Source: Hymenobacter cellulosivorans (lineage in GTDB: Bacteria; Bacteroidota; Bacteroidia; Cytophagales; Hymenobacteraceae). From it: a stretch of 64,000 bases of DNA. The notes under the pieces are model-generated. The model did no database searches. It saw nothing but the letters and a program-made list of their open reading frames with translations, and had not been told where the DNA came from. The position numbers were made by a program, and so were the translations under genes. The stretch covers positions 3,104,501 to 3,168,500 of the forward strand of contig NZ_CP095049.1 of assembly GCF_022919135.1 (NCBI RefSeq). The letters run 5' to 3'. Below, in pieces: positions 41,002 through 58,357 of the stretch; within the stretch, counting starts at the first letter, position 1; each line of letters starts with the position of its first letter.

Positions 41002-41541
41002 TGAGGACAATGTGAGAAATATGCTGATGTGCTAAGGCAAAAGCTCGTGTCCTGGCGAGCAACGCGAAGCACTCCGCCCTCTGCGAAGTAACCAACTTTT
41101 ACCAGAAAGCCCCTTGCTGCCACGCCGTAGCAGGGGGCTTTCTGCGTGAGGGAAAGGCGGTTCAGATAATCAGCAAGAGCTTTTAAGCGGCGAAGTCGAC
41201 AAGTTGCACCAAGCTCATGTTGCAACGTTGCTTTGTCTTTAAGGTCGGTATACAAGTTGTAAGAATACGTGCTTCCGCATACTAAGCTTGGGTATATAGA
41301 GCTTTGAATTAAGGGATTTTGTATATCAGTTATTGGTATGCGCACAAAAGAAATAGTAAAACTGTATACCATTGACTATTGGTAAGTAACAGAAAGCAAA
41401 GCTGCTGTCTACGGCTGATTGCTCCGTCTTTTCATAGAGTGCTTGGCCCGCATGCGGTGGCCGCGGAACTGGTTCTGGCCGTAAACTGCCCCGTTTCCCT
41501 TTTCTTTGTCGGGCCTAAGCCTGGCTCCACTCGTCTGCTCT
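41002..41541. other. Intergenic region with hairpin and AT-rich island
   Basis: No gene is supported in these 540 bp. A 16-bp stem with one G-U pair (41103-41118 with 41129-41144, CAGAAAGCCCC/GGGGCTTTCTG type) lacks a strong T run and may be a weak terminator for the aldo/keto reductase gene. From about 41160 to 41420 the sequence is visibly AT-rich, unlike everything around it. It contains GGTATAC (near 41246) and GTATACC (near 41364). It may be a promoter region or a remnant of foreign DNA. Confidence 0.5.
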
Positions 41542-42342
41542 ATGTCCGAAACTATTTCTCCGCTCCGAACCGTTGCCGTGACGCGCTACGTCACGCCCCT
41601 GCGCGAAGGAGGTTCCCTGCCGGCCTTGGTCGAAGCCGACGACGAGTTTATGTACGTCGTCAAGTTTCGGGGTGCGGGGCAGGGCATCAAGGCCCTCATT
41701 GCCGAGCTGATTGTAGGTGAGCTAGCCCGGTTTCTGGGCCTGCGCGTGCCCGAGCTGGTGTTCTGTGAGCTCGACGTAGCCTTTGGCCGCTCCGAGCCCG
41801 ACGAGGAAATCCAGGATTTGCTGCAAGCCAGCACCGGCCAGAACTTGGGCCTGCACTACCTGTCGGGTGCCATTACCTACGATGCCCTGGTGACGACCAT
41901 CGAGCCGCGCCTGGCCTCCCAAATCGTGTGGCTCGACGCCCTGACGCTAAACGTGGACCGCACGGCCCGCAACACCAATATGCTGATCTGGCACAAGGAG
42001 CTCTGGCTGATTGACCACGGTGCGGCCCTGTACGTGCACCACGCCGGCCCCGGCTGGGCCGCGCCCCGGCCCCGGCCCTTCCCCCAAATCAAGGACCACG
42101 TGCTGCTGCCCCAGGCCGCGGAGCTGCGGGATGTAGATGCTGAGTACCGCGCCAAGATTACCGCCGAGGTATTGACCGACATCCTGGCCCTGGTGCCCGA
42201 TGCCTGGCTCGAAGAGGCCGCTGCCGGCGACGCTACGGCCGCCGAGCAGCGCACTAGCTACGTCGGGTTCCTGGCCAATCGACTGGCCGCATCAGAAACC
42301 TTTGTTCAGGAAGCCCAAGATGCCCGAAAAGCACTTATTTGA
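41542..42342 (+). CDS. HipA-like kinase family protein
   Basis: 266 residues from the ATG at 41542; an upstream start at 41506 would add 12 residues. HipA-type kinase elements are visible: DDEFMYVVKFRGAGQGIKAL (ATP-site Lys), the catalytic loop LDALTLNVDRTARNTNMLI and the metal motif LWLIDHGAALY. It is a short, stand-alone HipA-like kinase (PF20613-like) without the N-terminal HipA1 domain. It overlaps the DUF3037 gene by 23 bp, a pairing seen in many genomes. Whether the pair is a toxin-antitoxin unit or a regulatory kinase is unknown. Confidence 0.85.
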   Translation: MSETISPLRTVAVTRYVTPLREGGSLPALVEADDEFMYVVKFRGAGQGIKALIAELIVGELARFLGLRVPELVFCELDVAFGRSEPDEEIQDLLQASTGQNLGLHYLSGAITYDALVTTIEPRLASQIVWLDALTLNVDRTARNTNMLIWHKELWLIDHGAALYVHHAGPGWAAPRPRPFPQIKDHVLLPQAAELRDVDAEYRAKITAEVLTDILALVPDAWLEEAAAGDATAAEQRTSYVGFLANRLAASETFVQEAQDARKALI

Positions 42343-42706
42343 GTACGCCGTGCTGCGCGTGGTGCCCCGCGTGGAGCGCGAAGAGTTTCTGAACGTCGGC
42401 GTGATTCTCTACTGCCGGGCCCAGGGCTTTCTGCAAACCCGCTGCCACCTGCCCGAAGCCCGCCTGCAAGCCTTTGCCAGCGCCGAGCTGGACTTCGACG
42501 AGCTGCGCCAGCGCCTGCAGGCCTTCGAGAAAATCTGCCGGGGCAAGCCCGAGGGCGGCACCATCGGGCGGCTGGGACTGGCCGAGCGGTTCCGTTGGCT
42601 CACGGCCACCCGCAGCACCATCGTCCAGACCTCGCCCACTCACCCCGGCCTCTGCGAAGATGCCGCCGCTACCCTGGAGCAGCTCTATCAGCAGCTGGTG
42701 GGGTAG
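42320..42706 (+). CDS. DUF3037 protein, partner of the HipA-like kinase
   Basis: 128 residues from the ATG at 42320, which lies 23 bp inside the kinase gene; a longer frame open from 42200 is an overlap shadow. The family core is EYAVLRVVPRVEREEFLNVG then VILYCRAQGFL and the LAERFRWLTATRSTIVQTSP segment. It is cytosolic with no enzymatic motif. The strong overlap implies coupled translation with the kinase and suggests a physical partner or substrate. Function unknown. Confidence 0.87.
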   Translation: MPEKHLFEYAVLRVVPRVEREEFLNVGVILYCRAQGFLQTRCHLPEARLQAFASAELDFDELRQRLQAFEKICRGKPEGGTIGRLGLAERFRWLTATRSTIVQTSPTHPGLCEDAAATLEQLYQQLVG

Positions 42707-46462: not shown

Positions 46463-48316
46463 TTAGGCCGAAACCGGCTCACTCTGCGAAACTGCCTCCT
46501 GGGCCGGAACCGTGACCGAGCCCGGAATCAGGGAGTTGGCCACGTACCAGACGCTCAGCGTGTTGTTGAATCCCCGGTCGTATTCCGATTCGCAGTGGAT
46601 CCGGGCGCTGTTGTTGAGCAGGATGTAGTCCGAGTTGTTGTTCTGGTTGTTCTTGTGCCAGGTGCCGTCGGAGCCGTCGTCCCAGACCTGATGCAGTTCC
46701 CACTGCACGATGGTCCCGTCGACGGCAATATCGAAGTCGTGGCTGCGGTGCCCGATCTTGTAGCCTTGCTCGTAGTTCTGGGAGGTGTATTGAATTACAA
46801 AGGCCGGGTCGTTGGCGGCGTTGGTATAGTTGGTCGAGCCAAACTTGCCGGATTCCGACTGACTAGCGCCGATGGCCGGCTCGGACGACTGCAGCTTCTG
46901 AATCGTCTGAATGAAGAGGTAGCGCTGGCTCAGGTTGTTCAAATCATTCAGCAGGGCGCTGACCTGGCCGCTCAGGCTGGTGCGGGTCGCGTCGTCTTCG
47001 ACCAGGGTCTGGGCGTTGGCCATTACCTTCTTGACCACGCTGTTGACCTGCGTCGGATAAGAGCCCTGCCAGCTGGAAGGCAAGGAGTTGAGCGTAATCT
47101 GGAGCAGGTACGTGTTGAAGTAGATGTCGCCGACGGCGCTGAAGATGTTGGGGTCAATTGGCAGCGTAGTCGGAATTTTGGCGCTGATCTGGCTGTAGTG
47201 AATCATTTCGGCATGGCCAGGCACAGGCTCGTTGTACTGCTGAAACCACTGCAGGTACTCTTGCACCGTATCCATGCCGATGGGGGCCGTGGGGCGGTTC
47301 GGCGCGTTGGTGGGCATGCCCTGCATGTCCAGGAAAAAGCTCACCGAAACATTCTTATTGGCAATGGCGCTTTTAAATTCGGCCTCGCCCTGGGCCGTAA
47401 ACATATCCGGGGCCGATGCGCCCAGCGAAGCTTTTACCTGCGTAAGCGTTTCCGACGAATTGGCACTAACGGTATACACGGCCCGAAATGTAGCCTGCCG
47501 CCGGCTGCCCGCCAGGTAATAGTCGCCGTACAGGGCGCGAAACTTGTCAAACTGTCCGGCATCAATCAGCTGCTGGGCCTGCGGGGCAAACGAGACGGTG
47601 CTGCTGTTGATGGTGTCATAGTCGTTGTACTCTACCTGGTAGGTAGCCAGAATCGTCAGGTCCAGCGTCGACTGCTTGATCTGGCTCAGGTAAGACGTGG
47701 ACGCGTTAACGGTGATGCCGTCCATGTTGTAGCTGCCGCTGGCCGACACGTTGATGAGCTGGTCAACGTCACTGGTAGAAAAGATGTTGGCGTAGGTGGT
47801 GTGCGAGTTCTGGGACTGGGCCTGCTTCACCGTGAACGGGTTGAGGGCCTGGGCGCTCAGCACGCCCGTCACCGCGTTGACGCCCTTGCCCAGGGCATAG
47901 CCATCCAGCCAGGGCTGCCCGCTCAGGTCACTCACCAGCGTCGTCGTGGTACTGTTGGTGGCCTGCAGGCTGGGAATGCGGGCCCTAAAGCCGCGGCGGG
48001 CAGGAGCAGGAGCAGGAGTTCCAACTAGCTTGCAGAGCACCACCTGGCCGGTCCAGTCGCGGTCCTGTACGGTGGTCGCGCCCGAGAAAGTCTTGTCATA
48101 GGCTTTCTGAAACTGGCCCATAACGCTTTCACAGCCGCAGTCGAGCTTGAAATTGACGGTGTAGCCCAGGGGGCCAGTGGGGGTTGGGGCGCTCATACTG
48201 CCTTTTACAGCTAGGTTGGCGTAGCACTTCAGGTATTGCTGGCCGAATACCTGAAAGGGCTTTTCCGCTTTGAACTTCAGCTCAAAGGTGCCTTCAGAAA
48301 TGATTGGGTCAATCAT
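46463..48316 (-). CDS. Large unknown protein, candidate MACPF/perforin-like (paralogue A)
   Basis: 617 residues without a signal peptide. An N-terminal domain of about 105 residues (FELKFKAEKPFQVFGQQYLK, then LDCGCESVMGQFQKAYDKTF) is absent from the paralogue at 52662. The rest is shared. It has a glycine turn LGKGVNAVTGVLSAQ, a Ser/Gly beta hairpin (SASGSYNMDGITVNASTSYL), then FRALYGDYYLAGSRRQATFR, which resembles the YGTH-type signature followed by a strand in MACPF proteins. Further shared motifs are DMQGMPTNAPNRP and IPTTLPIDPNIF. A C-terminal beta domain has IVQWELHQVW, SDYILLNNSARIHCESEYDR and NNTLSVWYV, possibly a ligand-binding module. Pore formation is inferred only from these resemblances. 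Confidence 0.7.
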   Translation of the reverse strand: MIDPIISEGTFELKFKAEKPFQVFGQQYLKCYANLAVKGSMSAPTPTGPLGYTVNFKLDCGCESVMGQFQKAYDKTFSGATTVQDRDWTGQVVLCKLVGTPAPAPARRGFRARIPSLQATNSTTTTLVSDLSGQPWLDGYALGKGVNAVTGVLSAQALNPFTVKQAQSQNSHTTYANIFSTSDVDQLINVSASGSYNMDGITVNASTSYLSQIKQSTLDLTILATYQVEYNDYDTINSSTVSFAPQAQQLIDAGQFDKFRALYGDYYLAGSRRQATFRAVYTVSANSSETLTQVKASLGASAPDMFTAQGEAEFKSAIANKNVSVSFFLDMQGMPTNAPNRPTAPIGMDTVQEYLQWFQQYNEPVPGHAEMIHYSQISAKIPTTLPIDPNIFSAVGDIYFNTYLLQITLNSLPSSWQGSYPTQVNSVVKKVMANAQTLVEDDATRTSLSGQVSALLNDLNNLSQRYLFIQTIQKLQSSEPAIGASQSESGKFGSTNYTNAANDPAFVIQYTSQNYEQGYKIGHRSHDFDIAVDGTIVQWELHQVWDDGSDGTWHKNNQNNNSDYILLNNSARIHCESEYDRGFNNTLSVWYVANSLIPGSVTVPAQEAVSQSEPVSA

Positions 48317-48601
48317 GATGATGGAGTAAGTAAGAAGTAAGAAGTGAAGAGTGAACAGAGCGTCATCGGGGCAGCCAGGTCGGAAGCGGCTGGCACGAAT
48401 CGGTACAAGCAGTAGGGTAGACCAGCCCGGTAGCGCGGGCTGCGGGGCCCTCCCAGGTCGCGACGGCTGGAGGGCAGAGCAAGGCGTGGTGGCAAGGCGG
48501 GCCGGGGTAGGCAGCTAGCTGACCTTCACTCGGAAGAGTAAGGCAAAGGAAGAAGTTGAGGAGCGGCGGTTTGCGCGAAAAAATACCCAGCCTGACAAAA
48601 C

Positions 48602-48616
48602 GGGTATTTTTACCTG
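48602..48616. promoter_or_regulatory. Operator-like palindrome, site A
   Basis: GGGTATTTTTACCTG: GGTA and TACC arms separated by four T. It shares the arm and spacer pattern with the sites at 48687-48702 and 54439-54472. Confidence 0.5.
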
Positions 48617-48686
48617 ATGCCGTGTAACTCTGCCAGGGATAGGTCCTGCGTAACCCTTTGCTACCGGTTGGGAGTGGAGCCACAAC

Positions 48687-48702
48687 CAGGTATAAATACC
48701 TG
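48687..48702. promoter_or_regulatory. Operator-like palindrome, site B
   Basis: CAGGTATAAATACCTG: six-base arms CAGGTA and TACCTG are perfectly complementary around TAAA. It is the best copy of the motif and lies about 113 bp upstream of the gene at 48815. Confidence 0.55.
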
Positions 48703-48814
48703 TTTTTGCAGCTCCCGTGTTTCTACTCACTGGCGCGTTGTGCTTAATGCGGTACTTTGGCCCGACCTGTGGTGCTTACTCCAGGTGCCCCGCTATTTCA
48801 TTCTTCTCCGCTTT

Positions 48815-49534
48815 ATGACCACCACTACTACCGCCAACATCCTGAGCCCTGGTGCCTATGAGCGCCGCGCTGCCAAATGGGCCACTATTCTAAGTAAAAT
48901 CAAAAGCGACGCTCTGCAGCAGAGCTTCCTGGTGGCTACCCCTGCCGGGCAAGAGCGCCTGGCCTACGTAAGCTTCCCAATTCAGCATATCGTGTGGCTT
49001 ATGTCGACGGTGGGCGTGCGTCACATTCAGGCCCGTTTCCTGATTGCCACCAAAAAGGTTGACGGACAGCGCCACCCGTATTTCACGCTGGCCCTGTACG
49101 CCACCGATGCGCTGGGAGCCCGGGTTTCAGCTTTCTACCTGCCCAGCACGTACGCGGGCGAGCCCAAGCCCAGCGAGCTGCCCACCGAACAGGCGCCGCA
49201 CGACCTGGTGAAAGCCTGGCTCAACAACTGGGCCACCGCTCCGGAAATAACCTCGGCTTTGTTTGCCAACAGCTACGGTCCCTTGCTGGGCTATAGCTTC
49301 AGCGTGGAAGACTTTATGCGGCCGCTGTTCGAAGCCCAGCCTTTTACCAATCAGGAGCTGCGGGTGGGTTTCGGGCTGCACGAGTACTACCCGGCGCTGC
49401 CCGTTGGCGCGGAGCGGGCTTACACCTTTGGCCTGGTCCTGCGGCTTTACACACCACCTACCGAAGAGTCGGCTGCTGCTATATCGAGTGCACCCTTCTT
49501 CGATTTGTCGACACCCTGCCCGCCCGGCACCTGA
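48815..49534 (+). CDS. Unknown cytosolic protein beside the MACPF-like genes
   Basis: 239 residues from the ATG at 48815; an in-frame start at 48617 would run through the operator region. There is no signal peptide or membrane helix. The sequence has SFPIQHIVWLMSTVGVRHIQ, RHPYFTLALYATDALGARVS, SVEDFMRPLFEAQPF and LRVGFGLHEYYPALP. I recognise no family. The N-terminus MTTTTTANILSPG is low-complexity. It lies 59 bp upstream of the 7-TM/kinase genes on the same strand and is divergent from paralogue A, so co-regulation with either is possible. Confidence 0.72.
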   Translation: MTTTTTANILSPGAYERRAAKWATILSKIKSDALQQSFLVATPAGQERLAYVSFPIQHIVWLMSTVGVRHIQARFLIATKKVDGQRHPYFTLALYATDALGARVSAFYLPSTYAGEPKPSELPTEQAPHDLVKAWLNNWATAPEITSALFANSYGPLLGYSFSVEDFMRPLFEAQPFTNQELRVGFGLHEYYPALPVGAERAYTFGLVLRLYTPPTEESAAAISSAPFFDLSTPCPPGT

Positions 49535-49593
49535 TTTCGTTTCGTGTAAAAGCTGTTCTTTACGTCGCGCTCCTTGTCGCGCTCTTTCCTCGT

Positions 49594-50241
49594 ATGCCTC
49601 TCACACTGCAGCAACTTTTAATGAGGCTGACCCTGGTGCCCGTCCTGGTGGCGGGCATCATTGGTTTCATCCGTTACCGTCATCTGCCCCTAAACCTACG
49701 TTTGCTGGCCGGGCTGGTGTGGTTTGTGCTGCCCATCGAAATCCTGGGGCTGGTCTTGCTGATTCTGCACCGCAACAACCTGTTTCTAATGCCCATCTAC
49801 ATGGTCGGCGAAACGGTGCTGCTGGGCCTAGTGTACCGGCATACGCTGCAGTCCCGGTTTTTCAACCGTCTTATGCCCTGGGTGGTGGGCGGCTTTGCCC
49901 TCTACGCCCTAGCCGACACTATTTGGGCGGGCAAGCTAACCCAGTTTCGGCCGGGCCAGCAGGTGCTGCAGGCCGTGCTGGTGTTGGTATTCGTGGGCTG
50001 GTATTTCCGCAAGCTGCTCAATGAGCTGCAGGTGCTGCATCCCACGCGGGAACCTCTGTTCTGGGTGTCTACGGGCCTGTTTATCTACTTTCTGGGCTAC
50101 CTGCAGATTGCCCTGTTCAGCAACTACCTGCTGCACTACTCCCAGCAGCTGAACCATAACATCTGGGCCGTGCACTCGCTGCTCTACGTCGTGCTGCACG
50201 GCTGCTTTGGCTACGCTCTATGGTTGCACCCCCGGAAGTAA
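49594..50241 (+). CDS. Seven-helix membrane protein coupled to a histidine kinase
   Basis: 215 residues with about seven hydrophobic spans (among them LVPVLVAGIIGFIRYRHLPL, VWFVLPIEILGLVLLIL, IYMVGETVLLGLVY, AVHSLLYVVLHGCFGYALWL). No enzymatic motif is seen. Its 3' end overlaps the histidine kinase start by 22 bp, a strong sign of coupled expression. It may be the sensory partner of that kinase, whose own membrane part is a single helix. Proteins of this type precede NarL-type kinases in Bacteroidota. Ligand unknown. Confidence 0.82.
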   Translation: MPLTLQQLLMRLTLVPVLVAGIIGFIRYRHLPLNLRLLAGLVWFVLPIEILGLVLLILHRNNLFLMPIYMVGETVLLGLVYRHTLQSRFFNRLMPWVVGGFALYALADTIWAGKLTQFRPGQQVLQAVLVLVFVGWYFRKLLNELQVLHPTREPLFWVSTGLFIYFLGYLQIALFSNYLLHYSQQLNHNIWAVHSLLYVVLHGCFGYALWLHPRK

Positions 50242-51032
50242 CCTTTGCCCAGCTGCTCTTCAGCGGCATTGCCTTTATGCTACTGGCCGCGGGCAGCCTG
50301 GTGGTGTTTCTGATAACCTACCAGAAGCGCCTGCTGCACCAGCAGCTACGCCTGCGCCTGGCCGAAGCCGAACACCAGCAGCAGTTGCTGACGGCCATCA
50401 TTGAGGCCCAGGAAGGAGAGCGGGAGCGAATCGGGCGGGACCTGCACGACGGTATCGGCTCCACCATCTCGACGGCCAAGCTGCTGCTCAACCGGCTGGA
50501 AAGCCTGCCCGCCCACGCCGAAGATGCCCAGGGGTTGCTCAAGCTCATCCGCGAAATCATGAGTGGAGCCGTGCAGGATGTGCGCAGCATTTCTCACAGT
50601 CTGTACCCGGCCGTGCTGGCCCGATTTGGTCTGGCCGAGGCCCTGCAGCACCTGGTGGACGTAGCCAACGAAACAGGCAAACTGCCCATTCTACTGGAGG
50701 TTGATTACGCTCGGCCATTGGCTCTGGCCCAGGAGCTGGCCTTGTACCGGATCTGCCAGGAGCTGGTGCATAATGCCCTAAAGCACGCCCATGGAGCTAC
50801 CCGCCTCGTGGTAAGCCTGCTGCAGCAAGGACCACTGCTCACGCTGACCGTGGAAGATAACGGCTGCGGGTTTGAAGCCGCCAACGCCGCCGGTAGTGCG
50901 CCCCCAACCCGCGGGGCCGGCTTGCGCAGCATCGACGTGCGCGTGCAGATGCTGCAGGGGCACCTGCGTCAGCATTCAGTTCTCGGCCAGGGCACCCGTA
51001 TGGTCGTCGAGCTCGACACTACGATGGCGTAG
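50220..51032 (+). CDS. Sensor histidine kinase, NarL/LiaS type (HisKA_3)
   Basis: 270 residues. A single membrane helix (LLFSGIAFMLLAAGSLVVFL) is followed by a coiled coil and the HisKA_3 dimerisation helix ERERIGRDLHDGIGSTISTA, with the phospho-acceptor His in DLHD near residue 77. The HATPase_c domain shows ICQELVHNALKHAHGATRLV (N box), VEDNGCGFEA (G1) and GAGLRSIDVRVQMLQGHL (G2). It has no extracytosolic sensor domain, so sensing probably depends on the 7-helix protein overlapping it upstream. It would phosphorylate the LuxR-type regulator encoded 69 bp downstream. Confidence 0.93.
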   Translation: MVAPPEVTFAQLLFSGIAFMLLAAGSLVVFLITYQKRLLHQQLRLRLAEAEHQQQLLTAIIEAQEGERERIGRDLHDGIGSTISTAKLLLNRLESLPAHAEDAQGLLKLIREIMSGAVQDVRSISHSLYPAVLARFGLAEALQHLVDVANETGKLPILLEVDYARPLALAQELALYRICQELVHNALKHAHGATRLVVSLLQQGPLLTLTVEDNGCGFEAANAAGSAPPTRGAGLRSIDVRVQMLQGHLRQHSVLGQGTRMVVELDTTMA

Positions 51033-51101
51033 ATGGTGGCAATTTGTGTTAGTATTACGGGGCCGTTCGGCTTATTTTAGCTTACTCCTATCCGTTATTT
51101 T

Positions 51102-51770
51102 ATGACCACTATCCCCACGCCCGTACACATTGCCCTGCTCGACGACCACGCCCTGTTTCGCCAGGGGATGCGCTATATCCTGCAGTCCTGGCCCTACGTG
51201 GAAACCGTGGTGGAAGCGGCTACTTTCGCCGAGCTGCTGGTTCAGTGCCGCCTGCGCCAGCCCGATGTGCTGTTGCTCGATCTGCAAATGCCCGAAGTAG
51301 ATGGGGCGGAAGCCGCCCGGCAGCTGCTGGCCGAGTTTCCCGACCTGAAAATTATTGTGCTGTCGATGTTTTCAGCCGATAAGTTTATCACCCAAATGAT
51401 GAAGCTAGGCGTGCGTAGCTACCTGCCCAAGGACGCCGACCAGGAGCAGCTGCGCGAGGCCATCGAAGCCGTACTGCTAACCGGCCACCACTTTACGCCC
51501 AGCATTTCGCGGGCCCTGGTACGGGCCGTGCAGCAGCCCATCCGGCAGGTACCCACTATGCTGCCTAACTTGGTGCAGCTGACGCCGCGGGAGCTAGAAG
51601 TACTACACCGCATCTGCCAGGGACGCAAAGCCGCCGAAATTGCCGATGAGCTCTTTCTGAGCCGGCGTACGGTGGAGGGGCACCGCCAGAAGCTGCTGGA
51701 AAAAACCGGCGCCCCTAACTCAGCCGGCCTAGTCGTGTACGCTGCCCAGCACGGCCTGCTGCCCAGCTAG
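51102..51770 (+). CDS. Response regulator, NarL/LuxR family
   Basis: 222 residues. The receiver domain has the acidic pair LLDDHALF and phospho-acceptor Asp in VLLLDLQMPEVDG, with Lys in RSYLPKDADQ. The C-terminal LuxR helix-turn-helix is LTPRELEVLHRICQGRKAAE then DELFLSRRTVEGHRQKLLEK. It is the output of the upstream kinase. NarL-type regulators often bind short inverted repeats, so it is a candidate for the AGGTA-N4-TACCT sites at 48602-48702 and 54439-54472; that link is inference. Confidence 0.95.
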   Translation: MTTIPTPVHIALLDDHALFRQGMRYILQSWPYVETVVEAATFAELLVQCRLRQPDVLLLDLQMPEVDGAEAARQLLAEFPDLKIIVLSMFSADKFITQMMKLGVRSYLPKDADQEQLREAIEAVLLTGHHFTPSISRALVRAVQQPIRQVPTMLPNLVQLTPRELEVLHRICQGRKAAEIADELFLSRRTVEGHRQKLLEKTGAPNSAGLVVYAAQHGLLPS

Positions 51771-51864
51771 GCCAGCGGCGTAGTACCAGGACAGGTTCTG
51801 CAGAACAGCCGGGGCCTGCCCTGCCAAGCACCTAACGTTTATAGGCGTGTTTCGAATGCGATGG

Positions 51865-52548
51865 TCACACTGCAGCTTCTATCCCAGTTCGTGTAGGTCG
51901 CTGTGCTGTTGCCCAGCGCATCTCGGTCAACATGGTTGACCCCAATGGTAATTTCCTTTCCCCACATAGATCGAGACCAAAAGGGGGCTCACTTTCTTCC
52001 CAAAACACTATTCGCCACGACTTATCATCCCGGGCCGGCACTATTTGGTGGGAGATGCTACTCATATTCCACACCAACGGGAGCTGAGCCGATGTGACAT
52101 CAGCCTTTGTGGCTCCATTAATCAGTAGAAAAGAGACATCTGGTCCAGTCCCATCTGCTTTGTCCCACGGCTCTCCTGTATCGGCGGTAAAATTCATTTT
52201 TGTTACTCGTACCTCTTTTACGGCCCGGATTCCAACTCGTAAGGTGATAGAGGTACTGACTGGGATATCATCTAGGTTGTAGGCCGTCAACTCTACTGAA
52301 TAGATTCCTGGCTTCGGGAATGTAACAGCTAAGTCCCGTTGCGTTGATACGGTACCATCAGGCAGTTTCCACTCATAATGAGCAGCATGAGTGCTCATGT
52401 TACTCAGCCAAAAGGATTCATTCACCTCTAGAATCGTCCCACTTGAGGAAATGCCGGCGGTAGCAAGCGGCGCAGGCTCTTTCTTACAGCCGAGCAGCAG
52501 GAAAGTGAGAAGCAGAAGGAATTGCGCGTAGTACTGGGATAAAAACAT
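51865..52548 (-). CDS. PKD-domain lipoprotein, probably frameshifted near its C-terminus
   Basis: 227 residues as read. The leader ends at lipobox LLLGCKKEP. A PKD fold follows (NESFWLSNMSTHAAHYEWKL, then FPKPGIYSVELTAYN), then a C2-like beta domain (VRVTKMNFTADTGEPWDKAD). The last 25 residues (CGERKLPLGSTMLTEMRW onward) look non-native. If one base is added in the C5-T4 tract at 51979-51987, the frame reads PPFWSRSMWGKEITIGVNHV, then DRDALGNSTATYTNWDRSC and SVTIAFETRL, stopping at 51839. That is a much more protein-like ending. Either a real mutation or a sequencing error could cause this. The gene is visibly poorer in G+C than its neighbours. Confidence 0.72.
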   Translation of the reverse strand: MFLSQYYAQFLLLLTFLLLGCKKEPAPLATAGISSSGTILEVNESFWLSNMSTHAAHYEWKLPDGTVSTQRDLAVTFPKPGIYSVELTAYNLDDIPVSTSITLRVGIRAVKEVRVTKMNFTADTGEPWDKADGTGPDVSFLLINGATKADVTSAQLPLVWNMSSISHQIVPARDDKSWRIVFWEESEPPFGLDLCGERKLPLGSTMLTEMRWATAQRPTRTGIEAAV

Positions 52549-52609
52549 GTACGATAGATTTTTTCAAACCTAGCGCTTTCCCGGCACAGAATAGTGCTAT
52601 TTACATCAG

Positions 52610-52637
52610 AAAGCCCCCAGCAACTGCCAGGGGCTTT
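52610..52637 (-). terminator. Terminator after MACPF-like paralogue B
   Basis: 8-bp perfect stem AAAGCCCC (52610-52617) with GGGGCTTT (52630-52637) and a 12-nt loop. It lies 24 bp after the stop codon at 52662. The T run is stronger on the plus strand, so it may act in both directions. Confidence 0.7.
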
Positions 52638-52661
52638 TTGTAAGCTCACTTGCGCAACTGG

Positions 52662-54224
52662 CTACTCTGCCTCCGGGGCGCTGGCGGTTACCTTGCCGGG
52701 AGTATAATTCGGAATCAGCGACTTATCGACGTACCACACCGTCAGAGTATTGTCGTAGCCCCGGTCGTAGTCCGAGCGGCAGCGAATCTCCGCGCTGTTG
52801 TTGAGCAGCACGAAATCAACATTGTTGTGCTGGTGATTCTTCCACCACACGCCGTTATCTGAGCGGTTTTGTTTGAGTTCCCACTGCACAATCGGGCCGC
52901 CGGCGGGTAGGGAAAAATCGTGTTCCATATGGCCCATTTCCCAGCTCTCGGCATGGCTCACAGTGGCCGATTTAATCACGAAGAGCGGATCTTGAGCCTC
53001 GTTCGGGTAGACAGACGTGCCGTAGCGCACCGTAGAGCCCTGCGCCACGCTCACGGGCGGCTCGGTCGCCTGCATTTTGCGGATGTTTTGTAAGAAGATG
53101 TAACGGTGATTCAGATTGTCGACGTCGGTAAGCAGGGCGGTGGTCTGGGCCGAAAGCACCTGCAGCACCGGCTCGTCGTCTACCAGATTCTGGGCGTTGG
53201 CGTTCACCTGGGCCACCTGCTTCTGCACCTGCGACGCGTAGGTACTCTGCCAGGTCGAGGGCAGGGAATGCAGCGTAATGCGGAGCAGGTAGGTTTCGGA
53301 ATAGAGCTGGCCTACGGCAACGAAGATATCCGGACTGATGGGCAGCGTCGTTGGGATGCGGTGGTCAATCTGACTGTAGTGAAACAGCTCGCCCCGGTCG
53401 GGTACGGGCACGCAGTTGTTGAGAAACCACTGCTGGTACTGCTGCATGGTCTCGACGCCGGCCGGTACGGGTGGGCGACCCGGCGCGTTGGGCGGCATGC
53501 CCTGCATATCGAGCGAGAAGCTGATGGAAATGTGACTGTTGGAAGTAGCCTGCTTAAAGGCCGCCACGCCCTCGGCCGTAAACATATCCGGCACCTTGGC
53601 CCCGATGGCGACTTTCACCTCCTGCAAGGCTTCTTCCGTGTCGGAGCTTATGGTATATACCGCCCGGAAAGTAGCCATGCGCTTGTGCCCGCCCAGGTAA
53701 TAATCCCCGTATAAATTGCGGAACTCCTGCAGCTTGCCTTCGTCGAGCAACTGCTTGGCCTCGGCCGAAAACTGGAGGCCATTGTGCTCAATGGTGTCGT
53801 AATCCCGGAAGGAAACCAGGGAGGTGGCCAGAATGGTCATATCCAGCTTCGACTGCTTCACCTGGTTCAGGTACTCGGTAGAAGCCGTAAGGTTGAGCCC
53901 CCCGATGTTGTAGCTGCCGCTGGCCGATCCGCTGATCAGGCGTTCTACCTCGCTGGTGCTGGTCACGGAGGAAAACTCGTCGCGCGAATCCGAATACTGG
54001 GCCGGCACCACCGTGTAGGGGGCCAGGGCCGAGCCGCACAGCACGCCCGTTACCGCATTGATGCCCTTGCCCAGCGTGTAGCCATCCTGCCAGGGTTGGT
54101 TGGCCAGGTCACTGATTAGGGTAGTGGTGCTGGCATCGGGCTGTTCACCGGGCACGCGGGCCGGCCCCGTCAGGGTTTCGGAAGCCACTTGGGAAGCTTC
54201 GAGGGGAGGGGTGTTCACGGACAT
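52662..54224 (-). CDS. Large unknown protein, candidate MACPF/perforin-like (paralogue B)
   Basis: 520 residues without a signal peptide, paralogous along its length to residues 120-617 of the protein at 46463. Shared elements in order are WQDGYTLGKGINAVTGVL, SGSASGSYNIGGLNLTASTE, FRNLYGDYYLGGHKRMATFR, DMQGMPPNAPGRPPVP, RIPTTLPISPDIFVAVGQLY, LNHRYIFLQNIRKMQATEPP, IVQWELKQNR and NNTLTVWYV-like YDNTLTVWYVDKSLIP. The YGDYY segment and flanking Ser/Gly-rich hairpins recall MACPF proteins. Transcription is likely driven from the region at 54225-54480, which carries two operator-like palindromes. Role unknown; antagonism or self-lysis are possibilities. Confidence 0.7.
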   Translation of the reverse strand: MSVNTPPLEASQVASETLTGPARVPGEQPDASTTTLISDLANQPWQDGYTLGKGINAVTGVLCGSALAPYTVVPAQYSDSRDEFSSVTSTSEVERLISGSASGSYNIGGLNLTASTEYLNQVKQSKLDMTILATSLVSFRDYDTIEHNGLQFSAEAKQLLDEGKLQEFRNLYGDYYLGGHKRMATFRAVYTISSDTEEALQEVKVAIGAKVPDMFTAEGVAAFKQATSNSHISISFSLDMQGMPPNAPGRPPVPAGVETMQQYQQWFLNNCVPVPDRGELFHYSQIDHRIPTTLPISPDIFVAVGQLYSETYLLRITLHSLPSTWQSTYASQVQKQVAQVNANAQNLVDDEPVLQVLSAQTTALLTDVDNLNHRYIFLQNIRKMQATEPPVSVAQGSTVRYGTSVYPNEAQDPLFVIKSATVSHAESWEMGHMEHDFSLPAGGPIVQWELKQNRSDNGVWWKNHQHNNVDFVLLNNSAEIRCRSDYDRGYDNTLTVWYVDKSLIPNYTPGKVTASAPEAE

Positions 54225-54438: not shown

Positions 54439-54472
54439 CAGGTGTTTCTACCTAACCACGTATTTCTACCTG
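54439..54472. promoter_or_regulatory. Pair of operator-like palindromes, sites C and D
   Basis: CAGGTGTTTCTACCTA (54439-54454) and CGTATTTCTACCTG (54459-54472), 18 bp apart start to start. Both fit AGGTA-N4-TACCT with one or two changes in the left arm. They lie 215-250 bp upstream of paralogue B. The rest of the gap 54225-54565 holds no recognised gene or signal. Confidence 0.5.
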
Positions 54473-54565: not shown

Positions 54566-54628
54566 CAAACACCCGCTCCTGTATTGTGCCTTCCGTGAGA
54601 AGCGGCACAATACAGGAGCGGGTGTTTG
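54566..54628. terminator. Strong hairpin, 25-bp perfect stem
   Basis: 54566-54590 is exactly complementary to 54604-54628 with a 13-nt loop; the core is ACCCGCTCCTG/CAGGAGCGGGT with TTTG on the outside. It lies 27 bp after the stop codon of the M3 peptidase gene (minus strand), so terminator or mRNA 3'-end protection is likely. Confidence 0.75.
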
Positions 54629-56883: not shown

Positions 56884-57037
56884 AAGCAAAAAGCCGGTCG
56901 GAGGGTGAAAGGAAGTCGGAAGATAACACGGAAAAACCGCTGGGGTTGCGTGGCGGGCGGGTTAGCGTGTCGGGCAAAACAACCCGGCACACGTATAAAT
57001 CGTGCCAGTCCGGCCCGGCTTCCCGACCTTTGCCCGC

Positions 57038-58357
57038 ATGCACACCCTCGAACAGCTGCGTAGCGGCGCTTTGGCCGGTACCACCCGCCTCGACCTTTCC
57101 GGCGGCCTGACCGAATTTCCGCGCGAAATCCTCGACCTGGCCGATACGCTGGAAGTCCTGAACCTGACCGGCAACCAGCTCTCGGCCCTGCCCACCGACC
57201 TAAGCCGCCTGCGGAAGCTGCGCATCCTGTTCTGCTCCGAGAACCGCTTTACGGAAGTGCCTGCCGTGCTGGGCCAGTGCCCGGAACTGAGCATGGTGGG
57301 CTTTAAGGCGAACCAGATTCAGACCCTGCCCGGCGCGGCCCTGCCGCCCAAGCTGCGCTGGCTGATTCTGACCGACAACCAACTTCAGGAGCTGCCGGCC
57401 GAAATTGGCAACTGCCCCGAGCTGCAAAAGCTGATGCTGGCTGGCAACCAGCTCACCGCCTTGCCCGAAGCCCTGCGCCACTGCCACCGCCTGGAGTTGC
57501 TGCGCCTGGCCGCCAACCGCCTGCCTGAGCTGCCTGCCTGGCTGCTGGCGCTGCCCCGCCTGACCTGGCTGGCTTACGCCGGCAACCCGTTCAGTGAGGC
57601 CGCCCAAACCCAGGCCGAAACTCAGCACCCCATCCGGGAAATCGACTGGGCGGAACTGGAACTGGGGCGGCGGCTGGGCGAAGGTGCTTCGGGCGTAATT
57701 TCCCAGGCTCGCTGGCAGCCCGGAAACGCCCCGGCTCAGGAAGTAGCCGTCAAGGTCTTCAAAGGCGCCGTAACCAGCGACGGACTGCCGCACAGCGAAA
57801 TGGTGGCCTGCATCAGCGCCGGAGCCCACCCCAACCTGACGACGGTGGACGGCAAAATACACGCCCATCCGCTGAAAGCCGAAGGCCTGGTGCTGGAATT
57901 GATTCCGCCCGAGTTCCGAATTCTGGCCGGGCCGCCCAGCTTCGAAACTTGCACCCGCGACGTGTACGCACCTGGTACTAGCTTCAGCTTGGGCACGGCC
58001 CTGCGCATCGCGCGCGGTGTGGCTTCGGCGGCGGCCCACCTGCACCAGCGCGGCATCCTGCACGGCGACCTGTACGCCCACAACATCCTGACGACCCCGG
58101 CCGGCGCGGCCCGGCTCAGCGACTTTGGGGCCGCCAGCTTCTTCGCGCCTAGTTCGGCTTTGGCCCCCGGGCTGCAACGCCTGGAAGTGCGAGCTTTCGG
58201 CTGCCTGCTGGAAGAACTGCTGGCTCATTGCGAAGCTGGGGAAGCCGATGCCGAGGCCTTCCAGAAGTTGCAGGAGCTGCAGCAGCGGTGCGTAAGTTCG
58301 CCGGGCGAGGTGCGGCCGTTGTTTGCCGAAGTTGAACGGGAACTGGCTGGTTTGTAG
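57038..58357 (+). CDS. Leucine-rich-repeat protein kinase
   Basis: 439 residues from the ATG at 57038; a GTG at 57002 is upstream. About eight leucine-rich repeats fill residues 1-200 (LEVLNLTGNQLSALPTDLSR, LRWLILTDNQLQELPAEIGN). The kinase domain begins LGRRLGEGASGVISQARWQP, with the ATP Lys in VAVKVFKG. The catalytic loop is ILHGDLYAHNIL (HGD in place of HRD, with Asp and Asn kept) and the metal motif LSDFGAASFF. It is cytosolic and probably active. Similar LRR-kinases occur in Pseudomonas and Bacteroidota; no substrate is known. GACCTTTG ends 5 nt before the ATG, so the transcript may be nearly leaderless. Confidence 0.9.
   Translation: MHTLEQLRSGALAGTTRLDLSGGLTEFPREILDLADTLEVLNLTGNQLSALPTDLSRLRKLRILFCSENRFTEVPAVLGQCPELSMVGFKANQIQTLPGAALPPKLRWLILTDNQLQELPAEIGNCPELQKLMLAGNQLTALPEALRHCHRLELLRLAANRLPELPAWLLALPRLTWLAYAGNPFSEAAQTQAETQHPIREIDWAELELGRRLGEGASGVISQARWQPGNAPAQEVAVKVFKGAVTSDGLPHSEMVACISAGAHPNLTTVDGKIHAHPLKAEGLVLELIPPEFRILAGPPSFETCTRDVYAPGTSFSLGTALRIARGVASAAAHLHQRGILHGDLYAHNILTTPAGAARLSDFGAASFFAPSSALAPGLQRLEVRAFGCLLEELLAHCEAGEADAEAFQKLQELQQRCVSSPGEVRPLFAEVERELAGL

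Follow-up and report, generated by a model that had tools for sequence, protein, structure and literature searches.

Two paralogous genes in a 64,000-nucleotide stretch of Hymenobacter cellulosivorans (contig NZ_CP095049.1, positions 3,104,501 to 3,168,500 of the forward strand; hereafter the window, whose own numbering we use) encode proteins whose core, by profile comparison, belongs to the perforin/complement (MACPF) superfamily. Paralogue A (617 amino acids (aa); 46463..48316) and paralogue B (520 aa; 52662..54224), both on the minus strand, would be soluble proteins without signal peptides, from a divergent sister family inside that superfamily. We established the homology, architecture and distribution of this family, together with an inverted repeat, CAGGTA-N4-TACCTG, that the two genes share upstream beside a two-component operon; this shared repeat is new here. 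With moderate confidence, we favour the reading that A and B are pore-formers under sensor control that are produced in the cytoplasm and, once released, act on other cells.

A first-pass annotation of the sequence had proposed two paralogous open reading frames with a series of common motifs, and both frames lie exactly where it had placed them, supported by homologues. Across an alignment of 501 residues A and B are 53% identical, with 72% positives (E reported as 0.0); chance is no explanation, given the breadth of the family described below. The pairwise alignment contains the listed motifs in both proteins (LGKG[VI]NAVTGVL, SGSYN, LYGDYYL[AG]G, DMQGMP[TP]NAP[NG]RP, IVQWEL and YDRG[FY][ND]NTL). 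That annotation did not mention an N-terminal domain of A, the repeats upstream of both genes or the two-component operon that lies between them. The N-terminal domain, delimited by alignment and per-domain identities, comprises ~100 extra residues (residues 8-100; 48017..48295), is also found in proteins P0004, P0005, P0007 and P0009, and is missing from the 520 aa type. The MACPF-like core spans residues 121-395 of A (47132..47956) and 30-304 of B (53313..54137), and a C-terminal beta-type domain spans residues 479-598 of A (46523..46882) and 388-505 of B (52710..53063); in B the two are joined by a largely helical middle segment (residues 305-387; 53064..53312). All of these parts are encoded on the minus strand. 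Searches of Pfam, NCBIfam and PADLOC with A and B, and of PDB sequences with a single paralogue sequence, returned nothing meaningful.

Evidence for the MACPF assignment comes from profiles. We aligned 28 signal-less family sequences, drawn from 19 of 38 genomic loci and nine searched proteins (a set that excludes the lipoprotein-type loci, L062, and L043 and L045 as near-duplicates), and compared them using hhalign with 12 PF01823 proteins from other genomes in this phylum; the seed profile had missed two of the 14 loci at hand, L018 and L019. The comparison, which the first-pass annotation had suggested, gave 96.6% probability and a score of 86.4 over columns 49-240, with 188 aligned columns in order and YGDYY placed on FGTHF. 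Decoy maxima were 20.2 for 200 column shuffles, 22.4 for the reversed profile and 32.9 for 100 block shuffles, unrelated controls scored 12.9-17.1, and masking the signature still left a score of 60.7. As a benchmark, the accepted MACPF group g1 scored 65.2 against g2 and 130.4 against g3. The family profile also matched a protein in genome G122 (E 2.2e-4; 1.7e-17 for PF01823 at that place), and the core profile one in G508 (E 1.3e-5; 7e-21 for PF01823).

Built from family members only, the core profile further retrieved PDB entry 9uj0, 'Aeg-L' (E 3.6e-7; next match 0.5), which was found with E values of 1.7e-6 by the full-length profile and 0.034 by an earlier, smaller one. The entry holds 36 chains of one 488-residue sequence, similar in length to the family; profile positions 14-244 align on chain residues 5-239, with a YGD-x-F signature. 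It differs in keeping X6-GG (YGDRF-IADFIK-GG), and its C-terminal half did not align. No paper giving its organism or function was found in the literature searched. UniRef names the homologues P0003 and P0007 'MACPF domain-containing protein', which is a database label and not a test.

Several comparisons weigh against placing A and B among pore-forming MACPF proteins. Neither A nor B, nor anything else in the genome of the window, passes the PF01823 cut-off; P0014, P0015, L047 and L048 reach 12.3-16.1 bits for a cut-off of 21.5. Against PF01823 subgroup g2 the family gave no alignment (18.9) and against g3 a weak one (43.0, 55%); the accepted subgroups g2 and g3 likewise fail against each other (25.9). 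The strict MACPF motif is Y/W-G-T/S-H-F/Y-X6-GG (PMC2954219, excerpt), and the family departs from it, with YGDY in 28 of 28 sequences and GG in none. At the hinge positions, G occupies the first in 11 of 28 and A or S the second in all 28, so that the family reads YGDY-x-X6-x-[AS] instead. Bth-MACPF (BT_3439), whose structure is solved, itself departs from the motif at positions 3-5 and keeps GG (PMC2954219, excerpt). The MACPF reading of the first-pass annotation is partly supported; because the cut-off and motif are missed, we file the core, on profile grounds, as MACPF-superfamily in a sister family and not as a PF01823 member.

The predicted topology of the core may also resemble MACPF. 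Family-averaged hydrophobic periodicity, computed from sequence only, indicates beta-alternation at positions 85-118 and 189-246 of a 518-residue form. In B, the first stretch corresponds to residues 87-120 (53865..53966), a candidate first transmembrane hairpin (TMH1), and the second candidate, TMH2, covers residues 191-248 (53481..53654; one periodicity window is neutral); the signature YGDYY lies at 53697..53711, all on the minus strand. In the family sequences a predicted helix precedes the signature and another, with conserved W-F, follows the second alternating stretch; after it come a mainly helical segment and a C-terminus of beta type. This predicted order of elements in the core fits that described for Bth-MACPF (PMC2954219, excerpt). 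The family shares core homology and predicted secondary-structure order with PF01823 proteins, including Bth-MACPF and signal-less Hymenobacter examples. In solved MACPFs, the motif strands have a TMH insertion on either side, and the insertion in strand 4 contains a conserved helix (PMC2954219; PMC10344926; excerpts).

Such a fold need not form pores. Some MACPF proteins do not lyse cells, and A and B might serve, for example, in surface attachment or signalling, a role with which the missing hinge glycines would be compatible. Against this, the two-residue alternation is kept in both hairpin regions across the family, as insertion would need. Distribution and divergence speak the same way: core-profile matches occur in only seven of 120 genomes of the genus, own included (four of the seven are full-length family members), a patchiness that better fits an antagonism gene, and the 617 aa protein is 64% identical between the window and Hymenobacter genome G045, compared with 82-94% for the surrounding proteins (kinase, 82%; SNF2 helicase, 215 aa operon protein, response regulator and M3 peptidase, 90-94%). 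We regard a non-pore role as improbable.

The C-terminal domain is specific to the family. The first-pass annotation had described it as unrecognised, and indeed neither Pfam nor the PDB sequences (E values up to 10) contain a match for it; it spans ~120 residues with conserved D-x-x-x-G-x-W and R-G, and a survey of 296 phylum genomes, the window's own among them, detected it in no protein outside the family. Bth-MACPF likewise has an extra C-terminal domain (PMC2954219, excerpt). Bacteroidales secreted antimicrobial proteins (BSAPs) also join a C-terminal domain to MACPF, and in BSAP-1 this domain binds the receptor (PMC12853789, excerpt), but BSAPs are surface lipoproteins with a PF01823 domain, whereas A and B have no signal and a C-terminal domain that Pfam does not match. 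A 12-residue Kyte-Doolittle scan of the first 45 residues detected no hydrophobic stretch in A or B, the highest means being 0.51 (A) and 0.42 (B); by this crude hydropathy test, which is not SignalP, the absence of signal peptides noted earlier is borne out, and A and B lack the lipoprotein signal of surface-exported BSAPs. The insecticidal proteins Mpf2Ba1 and Plu-MACPF share the combination of MACPF and C-terminal domain, and have a helix-turn-helix at the strand 4 bend and an oligomeric pre-pore (PMC10344926, excerpt); their C-terminal domain differs in being a beta-prism with DLN repeats, none of which was seen in 18 family rows.

The family extends well beyond Hymenobacter. A protein search gave 15 proteins, including the two in the window, and a profile search of the protein database gave seven, none new. 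Scanning genome contigs with a single sequence found no relatives, and an alignment-based scan found the 38 loci, which span nine phyla (Bacteroidota, Pseudomonadota, Actinomycetota, Cyanobacteriota, Chloroflexota, Acidobacteriota, Verrucomicrobiota, Thermodesulfobacteriota and Synergistota). The family tree mixes phyla and has several long branches; 13 of its 31 inner branches have good support and 12 are open. A mobile element was considered and rejected, the 520 aa protein having no match in phage or plasmid records, and no family relative was confirmed in the viral contigs scanned. Among the open-licence papers searched, we recognised no description of the family and found none naming MACPF, Bacteroidetes and Hymenobacter together. 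The family adds a wide, apparently uncharacterised bacterial branch to the perforin/complement superfamily, with its own C-terminal domain and, in some members, a protease-like fusion.

Two groups bear on where such proteins act. In Geomonas and in seven of 15 Synergistota loci the protein starts with a strongly hydrophobic, lipobox-like stretch (12-residue mean 2.99-3.33 in 8 of the 16 loci); in the remainder, the chosen start or a contig end may hide a signal. Because 11 of these relatives, eight of them with a lipobox-like start, can be aligned to the signal-less family across columns 28-505 (score 397.5), the same architecture is probably exported in these lineages, which suggests that the family acts outside the producer cell. 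The other group carries a trypsin-like C-terminal extension, present in five of the 38 loci (L031, L032, L034, L041 and L043; L032 has a stop inside). Trypsin-extended MACPF-like proteins occur in Oerskovia, Cellulomonas and Pseudomonas, and the extension measures ~300 residues in L031, L034, L041 and L043. Four of the proteins, two of them near-identical, have TAAHC/TAGHC, D-L and G-x-S-G-x-P segments, and the extensions are 34-51% identical to one another. Pfam support is weak: L041 matches Trypsin at E 0.001 (19.3 bits, cut-off 20.6), L031 matches Trypsin_2 at 0.31 and L034 has no such match. L034 matches 34 plasmid records, and most of the 20 matches listed fall in its extension, on genes annotated as trypsin-like serine protease; the extension resembles Clavibacter proteases, which are secreted. 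Among the matches listed, one lies in the MACPF-like core (Streptomyces griseoaurantiacus, E 2e-6).

These relatives frame the main rival to our favoured reading, in which A and B would be an intracellular suicide pore that, once activated (perhaps by proteolysis), opens the membrane of its own cell, a MACPF-based equivalent of the bacterial gasdermins that would serve in defence against phage or stress. None of the 28 aligned signal-less members has a signal-peptide-like start (highest 12-residue mean 1.6), the protease-like extensions would supply an activator, and two-component control fits a stress response. The 9uj0 chain moreover aligns through LEVLFQGP at the end of the core, presumably an engineered 3C-protease site; if so, this relative had been examined as a protein activated by cleavage. 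A and B would share with gasdermins a signal-less, possibly protease-linked pore design; however, they have no gasdermin match in Pfam or PADLOC, and neither carries a protease domain or the trypsin-like extension. Full-length relatives look exported, and the resemblance of the L034 extension to secreted proteases also points outward. Genomic context may argue the same way. Among the 25 of 68 Pfam families listed, neighbours of family members in 16 other genomes look mostly like housekeeping genes, and defence-library matches comprise 12 families, each in one or two of 54 proteins; the best is mad3 (E 4.2e-35). These figures come from 54 of 90 neighbours scanned, called as greedy longest open reading frames, which are unreliable in high-GC loci; outside the genus no conserved neighbour stands out. 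A defence-island context is not supported, and we judge the suicide pore unlikely. A little less likely still is a variant joining sensor control to programmed lysis, in which one site would drive signal-less pores of several highly divergent families that either open the producer's own membrane or are freed as the producer lyses, and protease-fused relatives in other phyla would be self-activating, as a counterpart of gasdermins.

Sensor control is indicated by the region between and upstream of the paralogues. A four-gene operon on the plus strand diverges from paralogue A. It encodes an uncharacterised, fast-evolving protein ending STPCPPGT (48809..49534; the frame is readable from 48617), a 215 aa protein that is hydrophobic by inspection and has no Pfam match (49594..50241), a histidine kinase with HisKA_3 and HATPase_c (50220..51032), and a response regulator with a LuxR/NarL-type GerE DNA-binding domain (51102..51770). 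Two copies of the repeat, GGGTATTTTTACCT (48602..48615, one mismatch) and AGGTATAAATACCT (48688..48701, perfect), lie between paralogue A and the operon and are common to both; two more, each with one mismatch, lie upstream of paralogue B (54440..54453 and 54458..54471). Copies are conserved in the intergenic region aligned with Hymenobacter genomes G045 and G261, where the 48602 site has counterparts. The window holds five copies with at most one mismatch for 0.75 expected, four of them upstream of A and B; for a shorter core, GGTAGAAATAC, there are seven matches with at most one mismatch for 0.17 expected, five of them upstream of A and B. The fifth full copy (376-389, one mismatch) is far from the MACPF genes and may be a regulon member or chance.

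Copies elsewhere follow a similar pattern. In the first 47 loci scanned (750,515 bp), all seven perfect copies are upstream of family genes, and two of them are independent. One precedes the 520-type gene of H. nitidus, with no operon alongside. The other, in Niabella drilacis (L039), is followed by a two-mismatch copy, and both lie between a GerE gene and a gene pair ending in a MACPF gene. The 92-aa GerE protein there is 54% identical over 61 residues to the DNA-binding part of the window's regulator, and the neighbouring full regulator is 32% identical. The window's own genome (6.1 Mb) has three perfect copies, the two besides 48688 lying inside long reading frames. Canonical MACPF genes share the site: five Hymenobacter proteins exceed the PF01823 cut-off, and the four without a lipoprotein-like start have it just upstream (L008, perfect; L011 and L092, one mismatch; L009, two mismatches), whereas the lipoprotein-like L010 has none. 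No site with at most one mismatch was found upstream of L005, L006 and L091, which are below the cut-off. A Bacteroidota promoter motif has three matches in the window, none upstream of the MACPF genes.

It is plausible, from these sequence associations, that the repeat is bound by this operon's regulator and controls A and B. The link is circumstantial, because in genomes without a family MACPF gene only five of 25 homologues of the operon's first gene have the site upstream at one mismatch or fewer, two of them perfect (only five of the 25 were checked to lie in the operon). Perfect copies stand upstream of such homologues at L119 (G043) and L127 (G047), and in G047 a canonical MACPF gene elsewhere on that contig, at a distance of ~290 kb, is also preceded by a perfect copy.

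For our favoured reading of released, sensor-controlled pore-formers, we infer regulator binding, pore formation, release and target. Each protein would consist of a MACPF-like core, with two amphipathic hairpin regions around YGDY, a helical middle and the family-specific C-terminal beta domain. The NarL/LuxR-type regulator would bind CAGGTA-N4-TACCTG upstream of both genes and switch their expression; the proteins would be synthesised in the cytoplasm and reach the outside either when some cells lyse or through a non-Sec route. The C-terminal domain would then bind the target membrane or a receptor, giving target choice as in BSAP-1, and the proteins would oligomerise, insert their two hairpin regions and permeabilise the target cell. 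To the points already counted against this reading must be added the few site-bearing homologues of the operon's first gene, the origin of five of the seven perfect copies in the regions where the motif was first noticed, the absence of a site with at most one mismatch from the signal-less, distant MACPF-like genes L005 and L091 of the genus, and the lack in A and B of an export signal, with no immunity gene or partner identified. The shared site provides a handle on the timing of signal-less MACPF production in bacteria, a question still to be answered for proteins that lack an evident exit from the cell, and further site-bearing genes could reveal more regulon members and perhaps the release mechanism.

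Release without lysis would be explained if A and B were loaded as cargo into an extracellular contractile injection system. The same genome does encode injection-system genes (Pvc16_N, sheath, CIS_tube and spike) at ~4.77 Mb (L095, G000:C1:4760001-4779000), and a sheath of the VipB type, as in type VI secretion systems, was not found in it. Yet the tube gene, which 21 of the 120 genus genomes possess (the window's own among them), is distributed differently from the family: among the four genomes with full-length family genes it occurs in the window's own (G000) and in G045, and not in G261 or G509. The MACPF genes are also 1.6 Mb from the injection-system genes. We consider this route very improbable.

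Family genes occupy a conserved place in Hymenobacter. In G045 and G261 a 617-type gene lies between SNF2 helicase and M3 peptidase genes, divergent from the four-gene operon; in H. nitidus a gene of the 520 type lies between the same flanks, and an M3 peptidase gene adjoins the family gene in all four Hymenobacter loci. An obligate A/B pair is rejected, because G045 and G261 lack a 520-type gene and H. nitidus lacks a 617-type one. Also rejected is the gene at 48809 as a dedicated partner, suspected from its position next to the MACPF gene in G045 and G261 as well. Its product is 41% identical between the window and G045. The gene occurs in 30 of the 99 genomes, counting the window's own; just two of the 30, that one and G045, also carry a full-length family gene. 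In five of five stretches examined it precedes the 215 aa protein and kinase with no MACPF gene; the regulator is present in four of these, and the fifth ends at a contig end. This wide occurrence without MACPF means that the gene belongs to the operon and not to the toxin.

Several other features surround the paralogues. A perfect 25-nt inverted repeat between the M3 peptidase gene and paralogue B (54566..54628) is terminator-like, so B may have its own promoter. Directly downstream of B is a gene for a PKD-domain protein with a lipoprotein-like N-terminus (51865-52548, minus strand), which has no counterpart in the G045, G261 and H. nitidus loci. Beside the M3 peptidase gene, a gene on the plus strand encodes leucine-rich repeats fused to a protein kinase domain (57002-58357) and is kept in G045, G261 and H. 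nitidus. A HipA-like kinase gene overlapping a DUF3037 gene (41506-42706, plus strand) forms a pair that is likewise found near the SNF2 helicase gene in those three genomes.

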